Shown: piece by piece, positions 10,576-21,169 of the stretch
Position numbering within the stretch: the first letter of the stretch is position 1
Layout of the letters: every line of letters begins with the position of its first letter
From: Selenomonadaceae bacterium
GTDB lineage: Bacteria; Bacillota; Negativicutes; Selenomonadales; Selenomonadaceae
DNA length: 40,413 nt
NCBI GenBank assembly: GCA_017553205.1
Contig: JAFZMV010000078.1
Coordinates: 1 to 40,413 of the forward strand
Direction of reading: 5' to 3'
Translations under genes and position numbers: made by a program
Notes under the pieces: generated by a model
Databases searched by the model: none
Told to the model about the DNA's origin: nothing
Seen by the model: the letters and a program-made list of their open reading frames with translations, nothing else

Positions 10576-10621
10576 TTTGCTGTAGTAAAATCAATTTAAT
10601 TTGAACAAGGAGGAAAAAAAT

Positions 10622-12952
10622 TTGAAACTCAGCGACATTAAAAATTTTAAATCATTTCATTTTATCGGAATAGGCGGTGCGGGTATGAGTGTACTCGCAA
10701 AAATTTTAATTGAATCCGGAATGACTGTGAGCGGCTCTGACAGAGTTGAATCCCCGACAACTGAAATGTTAAAAAAACTCGGTGCAAAAATTTTTATCGG
10801 TCACGACGAAAAAAATATTTCAAAAAATCTTGATGCGATTGTTTATTCTTCTGCAATTCCTCAAGACAATCCCGAAATTTTAAAAGCCGCAGAATTAAAA
10901 ATTCCGAAACTTCACCGCTCTGATATTAATGCAATGCTTGTTAATTCAAAAAAAGGTATTGCAGTTGCGGGAGCTCACGGAAAAACTACAACAACTTCCA
11001 TGATCGGTTTTGTTCTTCATAATGCCGGAACAGATCCCACAATTATTATCGGCGGAGAATCTACCGACTTGGGAACTGGTGCAATTTTGGGAAAAAGTGA
11101 CTGGCTTGTTTCGGAAGCTGATGAAAGTGACGGCTCGTTTATAAAATTGAAACCTTCCGTCGCAGTCGTCACGAATGTTGAAAATGATCATTTGGATTTT
11201 TACGGAACTGTTGAAAGAATTAAAGCGGCATTCAAAATTTTTATTGAGAATACTAACAAAGATGACGGAGTTGCCGTACTTTGTTATGACAGCGAAAATT
11301 TGAGAAATTTGGCGGGAGAAGTTCAAAGGAAAATTATTTCGTACGGAATTGAAAACGAATCTGACTACATGGCAAAAAATATTCGTGCAAATTCTGACGG
11401 AACAACTTTTGACGTTTTTAAGAAAACTGACGGCAGAGAAAAAAATCTCGGCAAAATTAAACTTGCAATTCATGGTCGTCATAATGTTTTAAATGCTCTG
11501 GCGACTGTTGCTGTTGCCATGCATGTCGGAGTAAAATTTTCAAAAATTGCGGAAGGCTTAAGCAAATTTCATGGAGCAAAAAGAAGATTTCAAACTTTAG
11601 GACGTGTAAAAAATGTTTGGGTTGTCGATGATTACGCTCACCACCCGACAGAAATTGCCGCCACTTTGAAAGCCGCACATGAAACTAATCCAAATAAAAT
11701 TATTTGCGTTTTCCAGCCGCACAGATATTCCAGAACAAAACTTTTGTTGAAAGATTTCGGAAAGGCTTTTGCCGATGCTGATTCATTAGTATTGACTGAT
11801 ATTTATTCAGCGGGCGAAGAAAAAATCGAAGGTATCAGCGGCGAATCAATTTTGGAAGAAGTTTTAAGCACGACTAATCAGGAAGTTTCGTATATTCCGA
11901 AAAGAGAAGAACTCGCGGAATTTTTACTGGACAGAGTTTCGCCCGGTGATTTGGTCATCACAATGGGTGCGGGAGATATTTTTAAAACGGGCAATGAACT
12001 TTTGGAACTTTTGAAACAACAACGCAAAAGAAAAATTGTTGTCGTCTGCGGAGGTCCTTCGACTGAATCGGAAGTTTCTCGCAGAACAGGTAAAGCCATT
12101 GCTGAGGCTTTAAAGTCTAAAGATTATAACGTTGAACTTATGGAGCTTAATCCGAAAACTTTTGCGGAGGAAATTAAAAAGAAAAATTGCGGAATTGTTT
12201 TCAATGCAATTCATGGATTTTGCGGAGAGGACGGACTTATACAAGGAACTTTGGACATGCTGAACATTCCTTACACTGGTTCTGATGTTCTTGCGTCCGC
12301 GTTGACTATGGATAAAGTTATGACGAAACATGTTTTAAATTCTGCAAAAATTTCCACGCCGAAATTTTCTGTTTATCGTTCGATTGAAAAAAGCGGTGCC
12401 CTTGCAAAAAAAATTGAAAAAGAATTCGGGTTGCCAGTTGTCATAAAAGCATCAAATCAAGGTTCAAGTATCGGAGTTTCTATTGTTGAAAATTCCGAAG
12501 AAATTTCTGACGCGATTGAAAACGCTTTCGATTACGGTGACGAAATTTTAGTTGAAGAATTTATTAAAGGTCGTGAATTGACGGTTGCAGTTTTCGGAAA
12601 CGAAGATGACGCACAGGCACTCCCGATAATTGAAATTACAACTTTGTCGGGTCGTTACGATTATGAGAGCAAATATACAAAAGGTGCGTCAACTCATATT
12701 GTTCCCGCAGAAATTCCCGCGAAACTCACTAAAAAAATTCAAGAATTGGCGATTAAATCTTTCAAAACTTGTAAATGTTCGGGAGTTGCCCGCGTTGACT
12801 TTATGCTTTCTGAAAATGATGTTCCGTATGTTTTGGAAATAAATTCTGTACCGGGCATGACTGAAACTTCTTTAGTTCCTGATGCGGCTCGTGCAGCTGG
12901 AATTGATTTCCCTGAACTCTGCGAAAAAATTTTACTTGCCGCAGATTTCTGA
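10622..12952 (+). CDS. murC-ddl: Fused UDP-MurNAc:L-alanine ligase / D-Ala-D-Ala ligase
   Basis: A single 776-aa frame. Residues 1-465 are MurC: GIGGAGMSVLA, the ATP loop GAHGKTTTTSM, EADESDGSF and DDYAHHPTEI. After a short basic linker (QQRKRK) a complete Ddl runs from about 470: VVCGGPSTESEVSRR, GSSIGV, RYDYESKY and LEINSVPGMTETS. MurC adds L-Ala to UDP-MurNAc; Ddl makes the D-Ala-D-Ala dipeptide added later by MurF. Fusing the two links the first and last amino-acid inputs of the stem peptide. The frame is open seven codons further up, but AAGGAGG there is the ribosome site for TTG at 10622. Such fusions are known in Chlamydia; both halves look complete here. No other mur genes adjoin. Confidence 0.95.
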   Translation: MKLSDIKNFKSFHFIGIGGAGMSVLAKILIESGMTVSGSDRVESPTTEMLKKLGAKIFIGHDEKNISKNLDAIVYSSAIPQDNPEILKAAELKIPKLHRSDINAMLVNSKKGIAVAGAHGKTTTTSMIGFVLHNAGTDPTIIIGGESTDLGTGAILGKSDWLVSEADESDGSFIKLKPSVAVVTNVENDHLDFYGTVERIKAAFKIFIENTNKDDGVAVLCYDSENLRNLAGEVQRKIISYGIENESDYMAKNIRANSDGTTFDVFKKTDGREKNLGKIKLAIHGRHNVLNALATVAVAMHVGVKFSKIAEGLSKFHGAKRRFQTLGRVKNVWVVDDYAHHPTEIAATLKAAHETNPNKIICVFQPHRYSRTKLLLKDFGKAFADADSLVLTDIYSAGEEKIEGISGESILEEVLSTTNQEVSYIPKREELAEFLLDRVSPGDLVITMGAGDIFKTGNELLELLKQQRKRKIVVVCGGPSTESEVSRRTGKAIAEALKSKDYNVELMELNPKTFAEEIKKKNCGIVFNAIHGFCGEDGLIQGTLDMLNIPYTGSDVLASALTMDKVMTKHVLNSAKISTPKFSVYRSIEKSGALAKKIEKEFGLPVVIKASNQGSSIGVSIVENSEEISDAIENAFDYGDEILVEEFIKGRELTVAVFGNEDDAQALPIIEITTLSGRYDYESKYTKGASTHIVPAEIPAKLTKKIQELAIKSFKTCKCSGVARVDFMLSENDVPYVLEINSVPGMTETSLVPDAARAAGIDFPELCEKILLAADF

Positions 12953-16851: not shown

Positions 16852-17325
16852 ATGAAAGTTTATGAAGGACAGATGACGGGACGCGGTTTAAAAATTGCGA
16901 TCGTTGTAGCAAGATTTAACGAATTTATTACAAGCAAACTTTTGGGCGGTGCTTTGGACGTTTTGAAACGTCATGAAGTCGAGGAAGAAAATATTTCTGT
17001 TGCATGGGTGCCGGGAAGTTTTGAAATTCCTCTTGTCGCAAAGAAATTGGCTGTCACAAAAAATTTTGATGCGGTAATTTGTCTTGGTGCGGTTATTCGC
17101 GGAGCAACTACTCATTATGATTATGTCTGCAATGAAGTTTCAAAAGGTGTTGCGGCTGTCGGTCTGCAAACTGAAATTCCCGTAATTTTTGGAGTTGTCA
17201 CGACTGAAAATATTCAACAGGCGATTGAACGTGCAGGGACTAAAGCAGGAAATAAAGGAGCGGACGCAGCCATGTCTGCTATTGAAATGGCAAATCTTTT
17301 GAGAACTTTTCCTTCCGCTGAATAA
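16852..17325 (+). CDS. ribH: 6,7-dimethyl-8-ribityllumazine synthase
   Basis: A 157-aa lumazine synthase: [35 protein letters not shown] with the catalytic His, GVAAVGL and FGVVTTEN. It condenses 5-amino-6-ribitylamino-uracil with dihydroxybutanone phosphate, the penultimate riboflavin step. The length is normal. The ATG follows GGAGGAG. The other riboflavin genes (ribD, ribE, ribBA) are not nearby and no FMN riboswitch is seen upstream, which is unusual for Bacillota, where these genes usually form one operon. Confidence 0.96.
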
Positions 17326-17368
17326 AAATTTTTGATAGTCTTGGTAATCTTGGGAAGTGGTGGATTTT

Positions 17369-18397
17369 ATGAGAAAACACAGAGCAAAATTTTCTCTTCA
17401 TTTCAAAGACGGCATAGAAATTCAAACTATGAAAGAACTCCGAGAAAATTTCGACATTAGAAGAATGATCGATTATTTTGAAAAAGGGAAATTGTTTGAC
17501 TGGTTACTTGACAGACTTTATGAAAATGAAGTTGAAGAGCTGAAAAAATTAGATCCTGATGACAAAGATTTTGCTGAAAAATTGTGCAAGATTTTTGACG
17601 TGGATTTTGATGAAGTTTCTGAACAGCTTGACGATCCTGAAACTATTGCTTGGAGAAATGAAAGACGTGCAAAACTGAAAAAGTTTACAAACGACAAAAC
17701 AATTTTGAAAGAAATTGATAACGTTGCTTTTAATCAGGAAGATTTGGAAGATATTTTTCTTGATGAAGTTCTGCCCTCAAAAATTTATTTGTGCGGAGAT
17801 AAATTTATTTTTCCGTCAGGCATTTTGAACAAAAAAAATATTTCTTATATCGGAGTCGGAAAAAAAGTTCTTGTCGAAATTGACAGCCATAAAAATATTG
17901 ACTTCGACGCATTAAATGTTTCATTCCACAATATTTATTTCAACGAGGCTTACAGAAAACTTGCCTTCTCAGACGACAAAGAAAAAATTTCTGATGAAGT
18001 TAATAAAGAAGAATCTCAATTTTATGCAGAAGATGTCAACCATGACAAAGAGCAGGTTTATGAAATTTTCCAAAATAATCAGCCTGAAAAAGTTGAAGAA
18101 GAAGAAGAAACTTACGAAGATATTTCGGGATATTTTGAACGCACAACGACTATTCAAAATAATTCCGGAGTTCATGCACACCCTGCAACTCAACTTGTAA
18201 AAACTGCCGACAAATTCAAAGCACAAGTTTATATCAGTGCAAGAGGCAAAACGGTCAACGCAAAAAATATTCTAGTAATAATGGGCATGGGACTGATTAA
18301 AGGAACACATGTTACAATTAAAGCCGAAGGACTTGACGCAAAAAGAGCCGTCGATACTTTAATCGAACTGATTGATAATAAATTCGGCGAAGACTGA
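17369..18397 (+). CDS. Unknown protein with C-terminal HPr domain
   Basis: A 342-aa soluble protein in three parts. Residues 1-100 are helical and charged (LRENFDIRRMIDYF, FDWLLDRLYENEV, LCKIFDVDF); I recall similar modules at the N-termini of other bacterial proteins but cannot name the family. The middle (about 125-200) is mixed. After an acidic linker (VEEEEETYED) an HPr domain spans about 255-342. The phospho-accepting His269 is kept in GVHAHPATQLV, with Arg17 of HPr replaced by His. The regulatory Ser46 site reads KNILVIMGMG instead of KSIMGVMSLG, so HPr kinase should not act on it. A role as a phosphorylation-sensing or carrier protein is inference. ATG 17369 is chosen over GTG 17357 for its GGTGG spacing. 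Confidence 0.8.
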   Translation: MRKHRAKFSLHFKDGIEIQTMKELRENFDIRRMIDYFEKGKLFDWLLDRLYENEVEELKKLDPDDKDFAEKLCKIFDVDFDEVSEQLDDPETIAWRNERRAKLKKFTNDKTILKEIDNVAFNQEDLEDIFLDEVLPSKIYLCGDKFIFPSGILNKKNISYIGVGKKVLVEIDSHKNIDFDALNVSFHNIYFNEAYRKLAFSDDKEKISDEVNKEESQFYAEDVNHDKEQVYEIFQNNQPEKVEEEEETYEDISGYFERTTTIQNNSGVHAHPATQLVKTADKFKAQVYISARGKTVNAKNILVIMGMGLIKGTHVTIKAEGLDAKRAVDTLIELIDNKFGED

Positions 18398-18413: not shown

Positions 18414-18444
18414 AATCCGTTTTTTTGCAGGACGGATTTTTTTT
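18414..18444 (+). terminator. Intrinsic terminator of the rfbC-to-HPr-protein operon
   Basis: AATCCGT (18414-18420) pairs with ACGGATT (18432-18438), followed by a run of T to 18444. It lies 17 nt after the stop codon. Confidence 0.9.
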
Positions 18445-18538: not shown

Positions 18539-21169
18539 TTGAATTACATGACAGGAAACGAATTGCGTGAGGCGTATGTAAAATTTTTTGAAGAAAAACA
18601 CGGTCATTTACATTTGCCGAGTGCGTCACTTATTCCGAAAGATGATCCTACTCTTTTAATGATTGGAGCGGGCATGGCTCCTTTTAAAGCATTTTTCACG
18701 GGAAAGGTAAATCCTCCCCGTCGTCGCGTTACAACTTCTCAACGCTGTGTCAGAACCGGCGATATTGAAAACGTCGGACGCACTGCACGTCATCATACCT
18801 ATTTTGAAATGTTGGGAAATTTTTCTTTCGGCGATTATTTTAAAGAAAGTGCAATTCCTTGGGCGTGGGACTTTTTAACAAATATCTGCGGACTTCCTAA
18901 AGAAAAACTTTGGGTGTCAATTTATCCGAAAGATGACGAGGCAGAAAAAATTTGGCTCGAACAGCCCGGCTTAAATCCCGAACATATTGTAAGAATGGAA
19001 GATAATTTTTGGGAAATCGGAACGGGCGGTCCCTGCGGTCCTGACTCTGAAATTTATATCGACTTGGGCGAAGAAAGAGGTTGCGGAAAAGAAACTTGTG
19101 CACCAGGTTGTGACTGCGACAGATATTTGGAAATTTGGAATTTGGTTTTCACTCAATACAACAAAACTGAGGACGGAAAATATGAGCCGCTCGAACATAA
19201 AAATATTGATACGGGCTGCGGACTTGAAAGACTTGCGTCAGTTATCCAGAATAAGAAAACAAATTTTGAAACTGATTTACTTTTCCCGATTATTGAATAT
19301 GTTGAAAAATGTTGCGGCTTGAAATACGGCGACGACGAGAAAAAAGATATTTCTTTTAAAGTCATCGCGGATCATTCCCGCAGTATGTCTATCATGATTA
19401 TGGACGGGATTTTACCTTCAAATGAGGGACGCGGTTACGTTTTAAGAAGAATTTTACGTCGTGCAATTCGTCATGGTCGTATGCTCGGAATTAAAAATGC
19501 TTTTCTTGAAGGTGCAGTTGACGCAGTTAGAAAAATTTATGAAGGCGTTGACGACTTTGACGCACTTGAAAAAAATATCGACTACATTAAAAAAGTTATC
19601 AGAATTGAGGAAGATAAATTTGCGGCAACTTTAACTCAAGGTACTGAACTTTTAACAAAAGAAATTGACGCTGTTAAAAATTCCGGCAAAACTGAACTTG
19701 GCGGAGAATTTATTTTCAAACTCTATGATACTTACGGTTTCCCCTATGAACTGACTGAAGAAATTTTGCAGGAAAATAATTTGACTCCTGACAAAAAAGG
19801 TTTCGATACTGCTATGGAAAATCAGCGTCAACGTGCAAGAGCCGCAAGAAGTGCCAACGAATGGGCAGCCATTCCAGACTTGTCATCAATCGACACGAAA
19901 AATTTAAAAGTTGACGAAAATATTTCTGAATCAAAAGTTGTGGCGATTTGGGAAAAAGGAAAACTTATTGACGAAGTTTCTGACGGTGCGGAAGTCGGAA
20001 TTATTTTGGAAGGTACTCCATTTTATGCGGAAGGTGGCGGACAAGTCGGCGACTGCGGAGAATTTATCGGAGAACTTGGAAAAGTTCGCGTTGATAATGC
20101 CAAAAAACTTCCTGACGGAACTGTTTATCACGAGGCTTATATTGAAGAAGGTCAAATTAAAGTCGGCGAAACTGTCAAAATTAAAATCGACGTTGACAAA
20201 AAACTTTCTTCCGCAAGAAATCATACTGCAACTCATTTACTGCAGGCGGCTTTAAGAAAAGTTGTCGGGGAACAAGTTCATCAAGCGGGAAGTTTGGTAA
20301 CTCCTGAAAGACTTCGTTTTGACTTTTCAAATTTTGAACCTGTCACCGCTCAACAACTTGCGGACGTTGAGGAACTTGTAAACGAAGAAATTTTAAAATC
20401 TATTGATGTTGACATTCAGCAGATGAAAATTGACGACGCAAAAAAATTGGGTGCAATGGCTTTATTCGGAGAAAAATACGGAGATATTGTTCGAGTTGTA
20501 AATGTTCCGGGATTCAGCTGTGAACTTTGCGGCGGTTCTCATGTTAAAAATATCGGACAGATAGGCAGATTTAAAATTGTCAGCGAAAGCGGAATTGCGG
20601 CGGGTGTTCGTCGTATTGAGGCTATTACGGGACGTGCGGCAATTCAAGACGCGAATAAACAGACAAAAATTTTGAATTCCGTTTCAAGTTTATTAAAAGT
20701 CCGTGCAGAAGATTTGCCCGCACAACTTGAAAAAATTCTCTCCGAAGATAAAGCCATGAAAAAACAGCTTGAAGAAGTCAACACGATGAAAGAAAGAGCA
20801 GAGGCTCAAAAACTTTTAATGGGCATTAAAGAAATCGGCGAATTAAAATATTTGTCGGGAGTTGCTCAAGCAAAAAATATGGACGAACTCAGAGATACTG
20901 CAGACTTTTTGAGCGGAAAACTCGAAAAAGGTCTTGTCGTTCTCGCGGCTGTCAATGAAGGAAAAGTTAATATCGTAGTTAAAGCTGATAAACCGGCTGT
21001 AGCACTCGGAATACATTCAGGAAAAATTGTTAAAGAAATTTCTAAAATTATCGGCGGTGGCGGCGGTGGTCGTCCCGATATGGCACAAGCAGGCGGGAAA
21101 AATCCTGACGCTATCCCGAAAATGTTTGAGAAAGCTGAAGAAATTGTCCGCGATTCTTTGGGAGTCTGA
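18539..21169 (+). CDS. alaS: Alanyl-tRNA synthetase
   Basis: An 876-aa AlaRS, full length. The class II aminoacylation core has TGNELREAYVKFFEEKHGH, RCVRTGDIENVG and HHTYFEMLGNFSFGDYF. The editing domain zinc ligands are His562, His566 (HTATH), Cys664 and His668 (CGGSH), two positions off the E. coli numbering. The C-terminal C-Ala domain ends in the glycine-rich GGGGGGRPDMAQAGG. The start is TTG at 18539 with GGAGG 11 nt upstream; the ATG at 18548 is too far from it. It is followed after 33 nt by tkt. Confidence 0.98.
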   Translation: MNYMTGNELREAYVKFFEEKHGHLHLPSASLIPKDDPTLLMIGAGMAPFKAFFTGKVNPPRRRVTTSQRCVRTGDIENVGRTARHHTYFEMLGNFSFGDYFKESAIPWAWDFLTNICGLPKEKLWVSIYPKDDEAEKIWLEQPGLNPEHIVRMEDNFWEIGTGGPCGPDSEIYIDLGEERGCGKETCAPGCDCDRYLEIWNLVFTQYNKTEDGKYEPLEHKNIDTGCGLERLASVIQNKKTNFETDLLFPIIEYVEKCCGLKYGDDEKKDISFKVIADHSRSMSIMIMDGILPSNEGRGYVLRRILRRAIRHGRMLGIKNAFLEGAVDAVRKIYEGVDDFDALEKNIDYIKKVIRIEEDKFAATLTQGTELLTKEIDAVKNSGKTELGGEFIFKLYDTYGFPYELTEEILQENNLTPDKKGFDTAMENQRQRARAARSANEWAAIPDLSSIDTKNLKVDENISESKVVAIWEKGKLIDEVSDGAEVGIILEGTPFYAEGGGQVGDCGEFIGELGKVRVDNAKKLPDGTVYHEAYIEEGQIKVGETVKIKIDVDKKLSSARNHTATHLLQAALRKVVGEQVHQAGSLVTPERLRFDFSNFEPVTAQQLADVEELVNEEILKSIDVDIQQMKIDDAKKLGAMALFGEKYGDIVRVVNVPGFSCELCGGSHVKNIGQIGRFKIVSESGIAAGVRRIEAITGRAAIQDANKQTKILNSVSSLLKVRAEDLPAQLEKILSEDKAMKKQLEEVNTMKERAEAQKLLMGIKEIGELKYLSGVAQAKNMDELRDTADFLSGKLEKGLVVLAAVNEGKVNIVVKADKPAVALGIHSGKIVKEISKIIGGGGGGRPDMAQAGGKNPDAIPKMFEKAEEIVRDSLGV

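Follow-up and report, generated by a model that had tools for sequence, protein, structure and literature searches.

An HPr domain as a predicted exchangeable tail of a previously undescribed protein module in a Selenomonadaceae bacterium

The gene described here lies in a contig of 40,413 nucleotides from a Selenomonadaceae bacterium (JAFZMV010000078.1, positions 1 to 40,413), the whole of which we call the window. An open reading frame on the forward strand, running from the ATG at 17369 to 18397, encodes a protein of 342 amino acids, which an in-frame GTG at 17357 would lengthen by 4 residues. Three parts, all on the same strand, make up the protein: an N-terminal module (residues 13-189, 17405..17935), delimited by an HMM that we built, an alignment and a tree; an acidic linker (residues 190-255, 17936..18133), defined by its sequence and by model pLDDT values mostly below 50; and a C-terminal HPr domain (residues 256-340, 18134..18388), recognised by profiles, PDB sequences and a structural model. 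We refer to the first part as the N-module. The gene is the last one before a terminator-like hairpin (approximately 18414..18444, forward strand; stem AATCCG/CGGATT and then a T run, read by eye from the sequence and unscored) that separates it from alaS (18539..21169, forward strand). Directly upstream, across a gap of 43 bp, lies ribH (16852..17325, forward strand; TIGR00114, E 1.6e-58), and the genes farther upstream on this strand are rmlC, rmlB, an isochorismatase-family gene and the gene of a 112-residue protein without a Pfam match. No PTS gene was recognised among the neighbours in the window. In 29 other genomes of the genus, the sequence preceding alaS (at most 1.5 kb, and less than that in a few) contains no relative of the gene, and a conserved ribH-alaS locus was not seen. 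A link to aminoacyl-tRNA synthetases, considered for the window gene before alaS, for the homologue on contig C126 before hisS and for locus L140 before alaS, was set aside as being at roughly the chance level for genes dispersed among housekeeping genes, by a rough and uncomputed estimate. Elsewhere in the window, positions 10601-12952 encode a 783-residue protein in which MurC is fused to a D-Ala-D-Ala ligase.

The only Pfam domain above the cut-off in the 342-residue protein is PF00381 (residues 257-336, 87.6 bits, E 5.8e-25). TIGR01003 also matches the C-terminal domain (E 1.8e-23), and the 33 distinct PDB sequences to which this domain aligns are all HPr, Crh or NPr. An AlphaFold2 model built with HPr relatives reaches a pLDDT of 84-97 across the domain, and the best Foldseek matches of the model are solved HPr structures (3le3, E 9.9e-9, TM 0.94 by target). 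A preliminary description, made from the letters of the sequence, had proposed a C-terminal HPr domain with His269 in the place of His15; the profile, the model and Foldseek agree with this assignment, and the structure prediction, which could have revealed another fold, returned HPrs as all of its best matches. By profile and model alike, then, the protein ends in a true HPr domain with an open-faced sandwich fold. The alignments place His15, the phosphoacceptor position, at His269 (codon 18173..18175), Arg17 at His271 (codon 18179..18181) and Ser46 at Asn300 (codon 18266..18268), all on the forward strand, so that the replacements of Arg17 by His and of Ser46 by Asn had been read correctly. 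Position 27 is Asp in this domain and Ser in the free HPr of the same genome, and the two share 60% identity (50 of 84). Because of this distance, and because paralogues of the fusion exist in other genomes, a misassembly that joined ptsH to another gene is unlikely.

Compared with HPr as defined by PF00381 and TIGR01003, the domain has the same fold and keeps His15 and Pro18, as well as the greater part of the hydrophobic docking patch (equivalents of Ile47, Leu48 and Met51), but it is C-terminal in a much longer protein, has lost Arg17 and Ser46, and coexists with a separate, normal HPr. FPr/FruB and other multiphosphoryl-transfer proteins likewise carry HPr within a larger protein; here, however, the Pfam scan found neither an IIA nor an EI nor a kinase domain, the remainder is an unrelated module, and full-length FPr models match the protein only at HPr and immediately ahead of it. 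Crh, the HPr-like regulator of Bacillus, has Ser46 and no active His. With Crh the window protein may have in common the idea of an HPr fold used for regulation and not transport, whereas its residue pattern is the reverse (His15 kept, Ser46 lost) and HPr kinase was not detected in its genome.

The preliminary description had seen a helical N-terminal module and a separate middle domain. Both are present; in the alignment of 32 rows, however, the helical first half and the segment that follows it are conserved jointly, as a single unit of approximately 177 residues, whose second segment ends ...KIYLCGDKFIFPSG..YIGVG.. and whose conserved residues include W45, C73, Y160 and G162. No credible relative of this N-module was found in Pfam, the PDB or PADLOC, weak matches to ferritin, RexA and PtuA being rejected as not credible, and none in viral contigs; the phage and plasmid matches listed are confined to HPr and the linker. 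A structure model of the N-module alone, computed without relatives, has a pLDDT of 43 and was set aside. Of the 380 genomes of the class, 70 contain the module, most of them in one family, and we consider it, on the basis of these sequence comparisons, to be a previously undescribed domain family of this bacterial class. The preliminary description had suggested looking for the module alone or fused to other domains, and the search returned at least six types of partner (HPr, the FliN C-terminal domain FliMN_C, Sel1 repeats, AAA, lipoyl-like domains and DUF6273) as well as members with nothing recognised. Our tree comprises 89 N-modules, including that of the window, from genomes of which many are incomplete. 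Because the loci were fetched by similarity, the following frequencies are not population estimates: 21 have an HPr tail (4 of these with Sel1 repeats too), 13 have Sel1 repeats only, 3 have a FliN C-terminal label (two by Pfam and the third by near-identity to one of them), 2 have AAA and 1 has two lipoyl-like domains. In the remaining N-modules nothing was recognised by the checks made, the Pfam scan having covered part of the 89. The two lipoyl-like tails, both at L140, read KINTVYGE and KINTPYGE where biotin domains read AMKM. By this reading the modified lysine is absent, and a second carrier domain would therefore also be used without its carrier residue.

Other arrangements of the module were seen across the family. 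The Sel1-bearing subgroup lies near an AAA ATPase in 22 of 75 loci and near a protein of approximately 357 residues in 24 of them, and two members, L086 and L087, have the N-module fused to such an ATPase. The ATPase (approximately 500 residues), the 357-residue protein and the N-module/Sel1 protein form a conserved neighbourhood in many genomes of the family (L059:4270-8791, L130, L144, L147 and others). These Sel1-repeat proteins share the N-module with the window protein, and some have an HPr tail, but the window gene stands alone. No close relative of the associated ATPase was found in its genome, which has only general AAA relatives (FtsH-like by reading), and a partnership with such an ATPase was rejected for the window gene. 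Tandem arrays of N-module genes occur in some genomes, one of them with nine copies (L163:4378-14453, genome G091), of which the one scanned carries DUF6273. At L011:380-5998 and 12 other loci an N-module gene is followed by a DUF6734 gene, and in 9 such loci a coiled-coil gene and a gene of approximately 770 codons without a Pfam match are also nearby. A paralogue with six Sel1 repeats and an HPr domain in which His15 is Asn (L010:143-7991, G000:C25) sits downstream of a 1092-residue HerA/DUF87 ATPase and uncharacterised genes.

The genome from which the window comes (2.39 Mb, 92% complete) encodes a free HPr of 88 residues, with the motifs GIHARPA and KSILMIM, adjoining an Enzyme I (C155:76237-77100, E 4.7e-117), and at least 8 EIIC permeases, the number of matches obtained. 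The normal ptsH and ptsI that the preliminary description asked about are thus present, and its proposal that the fused domain receives phosphate is not undermined by a missing Enzyme I. Given this HPr/Enzyme I pair and the abundance of EIIC, phosphotransfer onto His269 is possible. The weight that the preliminary description gave to the loss of Ser46, as an escape from phosphorylation by HPr kinase, did not hold. In the 37 genomes searched from the genus, that of the window among them, TIGR00679 finds nothing that passes the cut-off and in two of them gives a sub-threshold match; six genomes of the class, all outside the bacterial family of the window's genome, match with E<1e-108. This absence rests on one model, whose control missed B. 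subtilis and whose positives come from within the class; it was used in place of PF07475, whose control also missed Bacillus subtilis, and PF02603, which exceeded the cut-off in one control genome only. Even so, each of the 22 canonical HPrs beside Enzyme I has Ser46, as do 20 of the 21 fused domains, where it is probably retained for structure. Since the kinase was not found in the genus and Ser46 is kept all the same, Asn300 carries no message related to HPr kinase, and it is unlikely to be a sign of escape from this enzyme in the organism.

The active site is much less constant in the fused domains than in free HPr. His15 is kept in 15 of the 21 N-module-fused domains and lost in 6; the triad of His15, Arg17 and Pro18 is complete in 11, and at least one of the three is missing in 10. 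The 22 canonical HPrs beside Enzyme I, a set from which additional HPrs at these loci (several of them degenerate) were excluded, all keep the triad. For this difference in retention a Fisher test that ignores shared ancestry gives p 1.8e-4. The nearest relatives of the window protein by N-module, G000:C126 and G212:C59, joined to it by a branch with a modest support of 81, have lost the first strand and His15 and kept the rest of HPr, and the window copy is intermediate, with His15 retained and Arg17 and Ser46 altered. Two fused domains with Gln at position 15 (L066/L068), a pair in which synonymous change is not saturated, have a dN/dS of 0.21, well below 1, the range among fused pairs where it could be computed being 0.07-0.36, and a degenerate form has been retained in two species, between which the domain is 72% identical. 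These values describe other family members, as no close orthologue with HPr was found from which dN/dS could be obtained for the window gene itself.

His-less HPr-like proteins were also observed apart from the N-module. L181:4373-4759 (G020) and L186:185-574 (G215) each encode a protein of approximately 129 residues in which an apparent signal peptide precedes an HPr-like domain whose active His is Asp (DARP); the HPr parts of the two share 96% identity. An HPr-like protein of 114-152 residues without the active His (FRESA/FRECA motif; L170-L172 and L174-L176, one ORF each) occurs in many genomes of the genus and was not recovered in the window's own genome.

All of the N-module-HPr fusions found lie in the genus of the window, and their distribution indicates repeated change at the tail. 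The HPr label requires at least 11 changes on the tree of N-modules, and strongly supported branches alone force 6, counted for the HPr-only group. Pairs of loci whose flanks are approximately 89-97% identical display the individual events. L076 (G016) and L083 (G035) have flanks that are 92% identical and differ by approximately 300 bp encoding HPr in the former, against approximately 32 bp in the latter; as related proteins without HPr share the same GYGL tail end, HPr was probably added at L076 rather than lost from L083. Between L061 and L060 the difference comprises HPr together with the gene that follows it (930 bp against 18 bp), and between L056 and L134 it amounts to 455 against 225 bp. 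In L072 and L077 the N-modules are 94% identical (dS 0.13) and the HPr domains 58% identical (dS 2.3), which points to a tail that has been replaced. Proteins of the genus that are unrelated in other respects also contain HPr segments (L177, L180, L183, L184 and L187). One of these, L187:3280-4962 (G193), is a 560-residue protein with an intact N-terminal HPr domain and a remainder of approximately 470 residues containing a glycine-rich segment. At L061, L091, L139 and L188 the HPr-tailed N-module genes have in their vicinity a gene of approximately 200 codons that looks Uma2-like by eye, and in the L061/L060 pair this gene was gained or lost jointly with the tail.

The preliminary description had offered two roles for the protein, a reporter of PTS or PEP status and a dedicated carrier. 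For the first, Enzyme I would phosphorylate His269 according to PEP and sugar flux, and the phosphate would alter the activity of the N-module. The retained His15, the 60% identity of the domain to free HPr, the presence in the genome of this free HPr, of Enzyme I and of 8 matches to EIIC, and the intact triad in 11 of the 21 fused domains agree with this, and a working phosphoacceptor is possible in the window protein itself; but Arg17 is His there, and the family weakens the proposal, with His15 missing from 6 of 21 copies and from the nearest paralogues, an incomplete site in 10 of 21, and a tail that is absent or swapped in near-identical proteins, from which it follows that the family does not need an HPr tail. 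Phosphate carrying thus does not appear, from these comparisons, to be a conserved function of the N-module family, and we regard the reporter as possible and as the main rival to the explanation favoured below, if on the whole unlikely. A dedicated phosphocarrier for one partner has a precedent in FruB, a multidomain HPr carrier of the IIA-HPr type (PMC2405797), to which the protein could be compared as it could to FPr. Yet it lacks an IIA, EI or kinase domain, as well as Arg17, has no recognised PTS gene beside it, and belongs to a family that mostly occurs without HPr, all of which makes this role very improbable. The rapid gain, loss and replacement of the tail, the many degenerate copies and the HPr segments in unrelated proteins would also be expected if tails acquire copies of HPr by recombination and the domain then decays without function. 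This we consider doubtful, since most copies are in-frame and complete, dN/dS is low in the pairs where it is computable, and a degenerate form has been retained in two species.

An exchangeable tail that serves mainly as a docking surface, with phosphorylation of His269 optional, is the explanation that we favour, at about even odds. The conserved N-module would do a job common to the family, and the tail would decide the docking partner; an HPr tail would recruit HPr-binding proteins (Enzyme I, HPr-binding enzymes or regulators) to the N-module, or compete with free HPr for them. Unphosphorylated HPr binds and regulates partners such as MtlR and Rsd (PMC6763467), and the PDB holds complexes of HPr with Rsd (4xwj), glycogen phosphorylase (9s8k) and a fructose regulator (7x7h). 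His269 may still accept phosphate from Enzyme I, and this could switch docking on or off. The transfer would probably be less efficient, since Arg17, together with Thr16, is among the main contacts of HPr with Enzyme I (PMC8509676) and its replacement by His should weaken phosphotransfer. We infer the docking function, the identity of the partners and the reduced phosphorylation from the six partner types, the losses in the active site, the constraint on the L066/L068 pair, the swapped tails and the L140 tails. Against docking we count the His15 kept in the window and the full site in 11 of the 21 fused copies, with which phosphorylation may matter in many members; the altered HPr interface of the window copy, at Arg17 and at position 27; and the acidic linker, which could also bind the HPr domain of its own chain. 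A related idea is that the N-module proteins are sensors with interchangeable baits, whose tail copies a host domain (HPr, FliN or a carrier domain) as integrated decoys do. Such a tail would watch for, or soak up, whatever attacks or binds the real host protein, the catalytic residues of an HPr tail would be free to decay, and recombination would swap one tail for another; we think this a long shot.

The usual view of HPr is that of a conserved phosphocarrier with a housekeeping role, whose fusions are mostly with other domains of the PTS. In this genus it would instead be a tail that can be exchanged on a previously undescribed module, one that comes and goes between nearly identical loci and that often lacks its His, and the pairs of occupied and empty loci make the use of the HPr fold without phosphate transfer directly testable.
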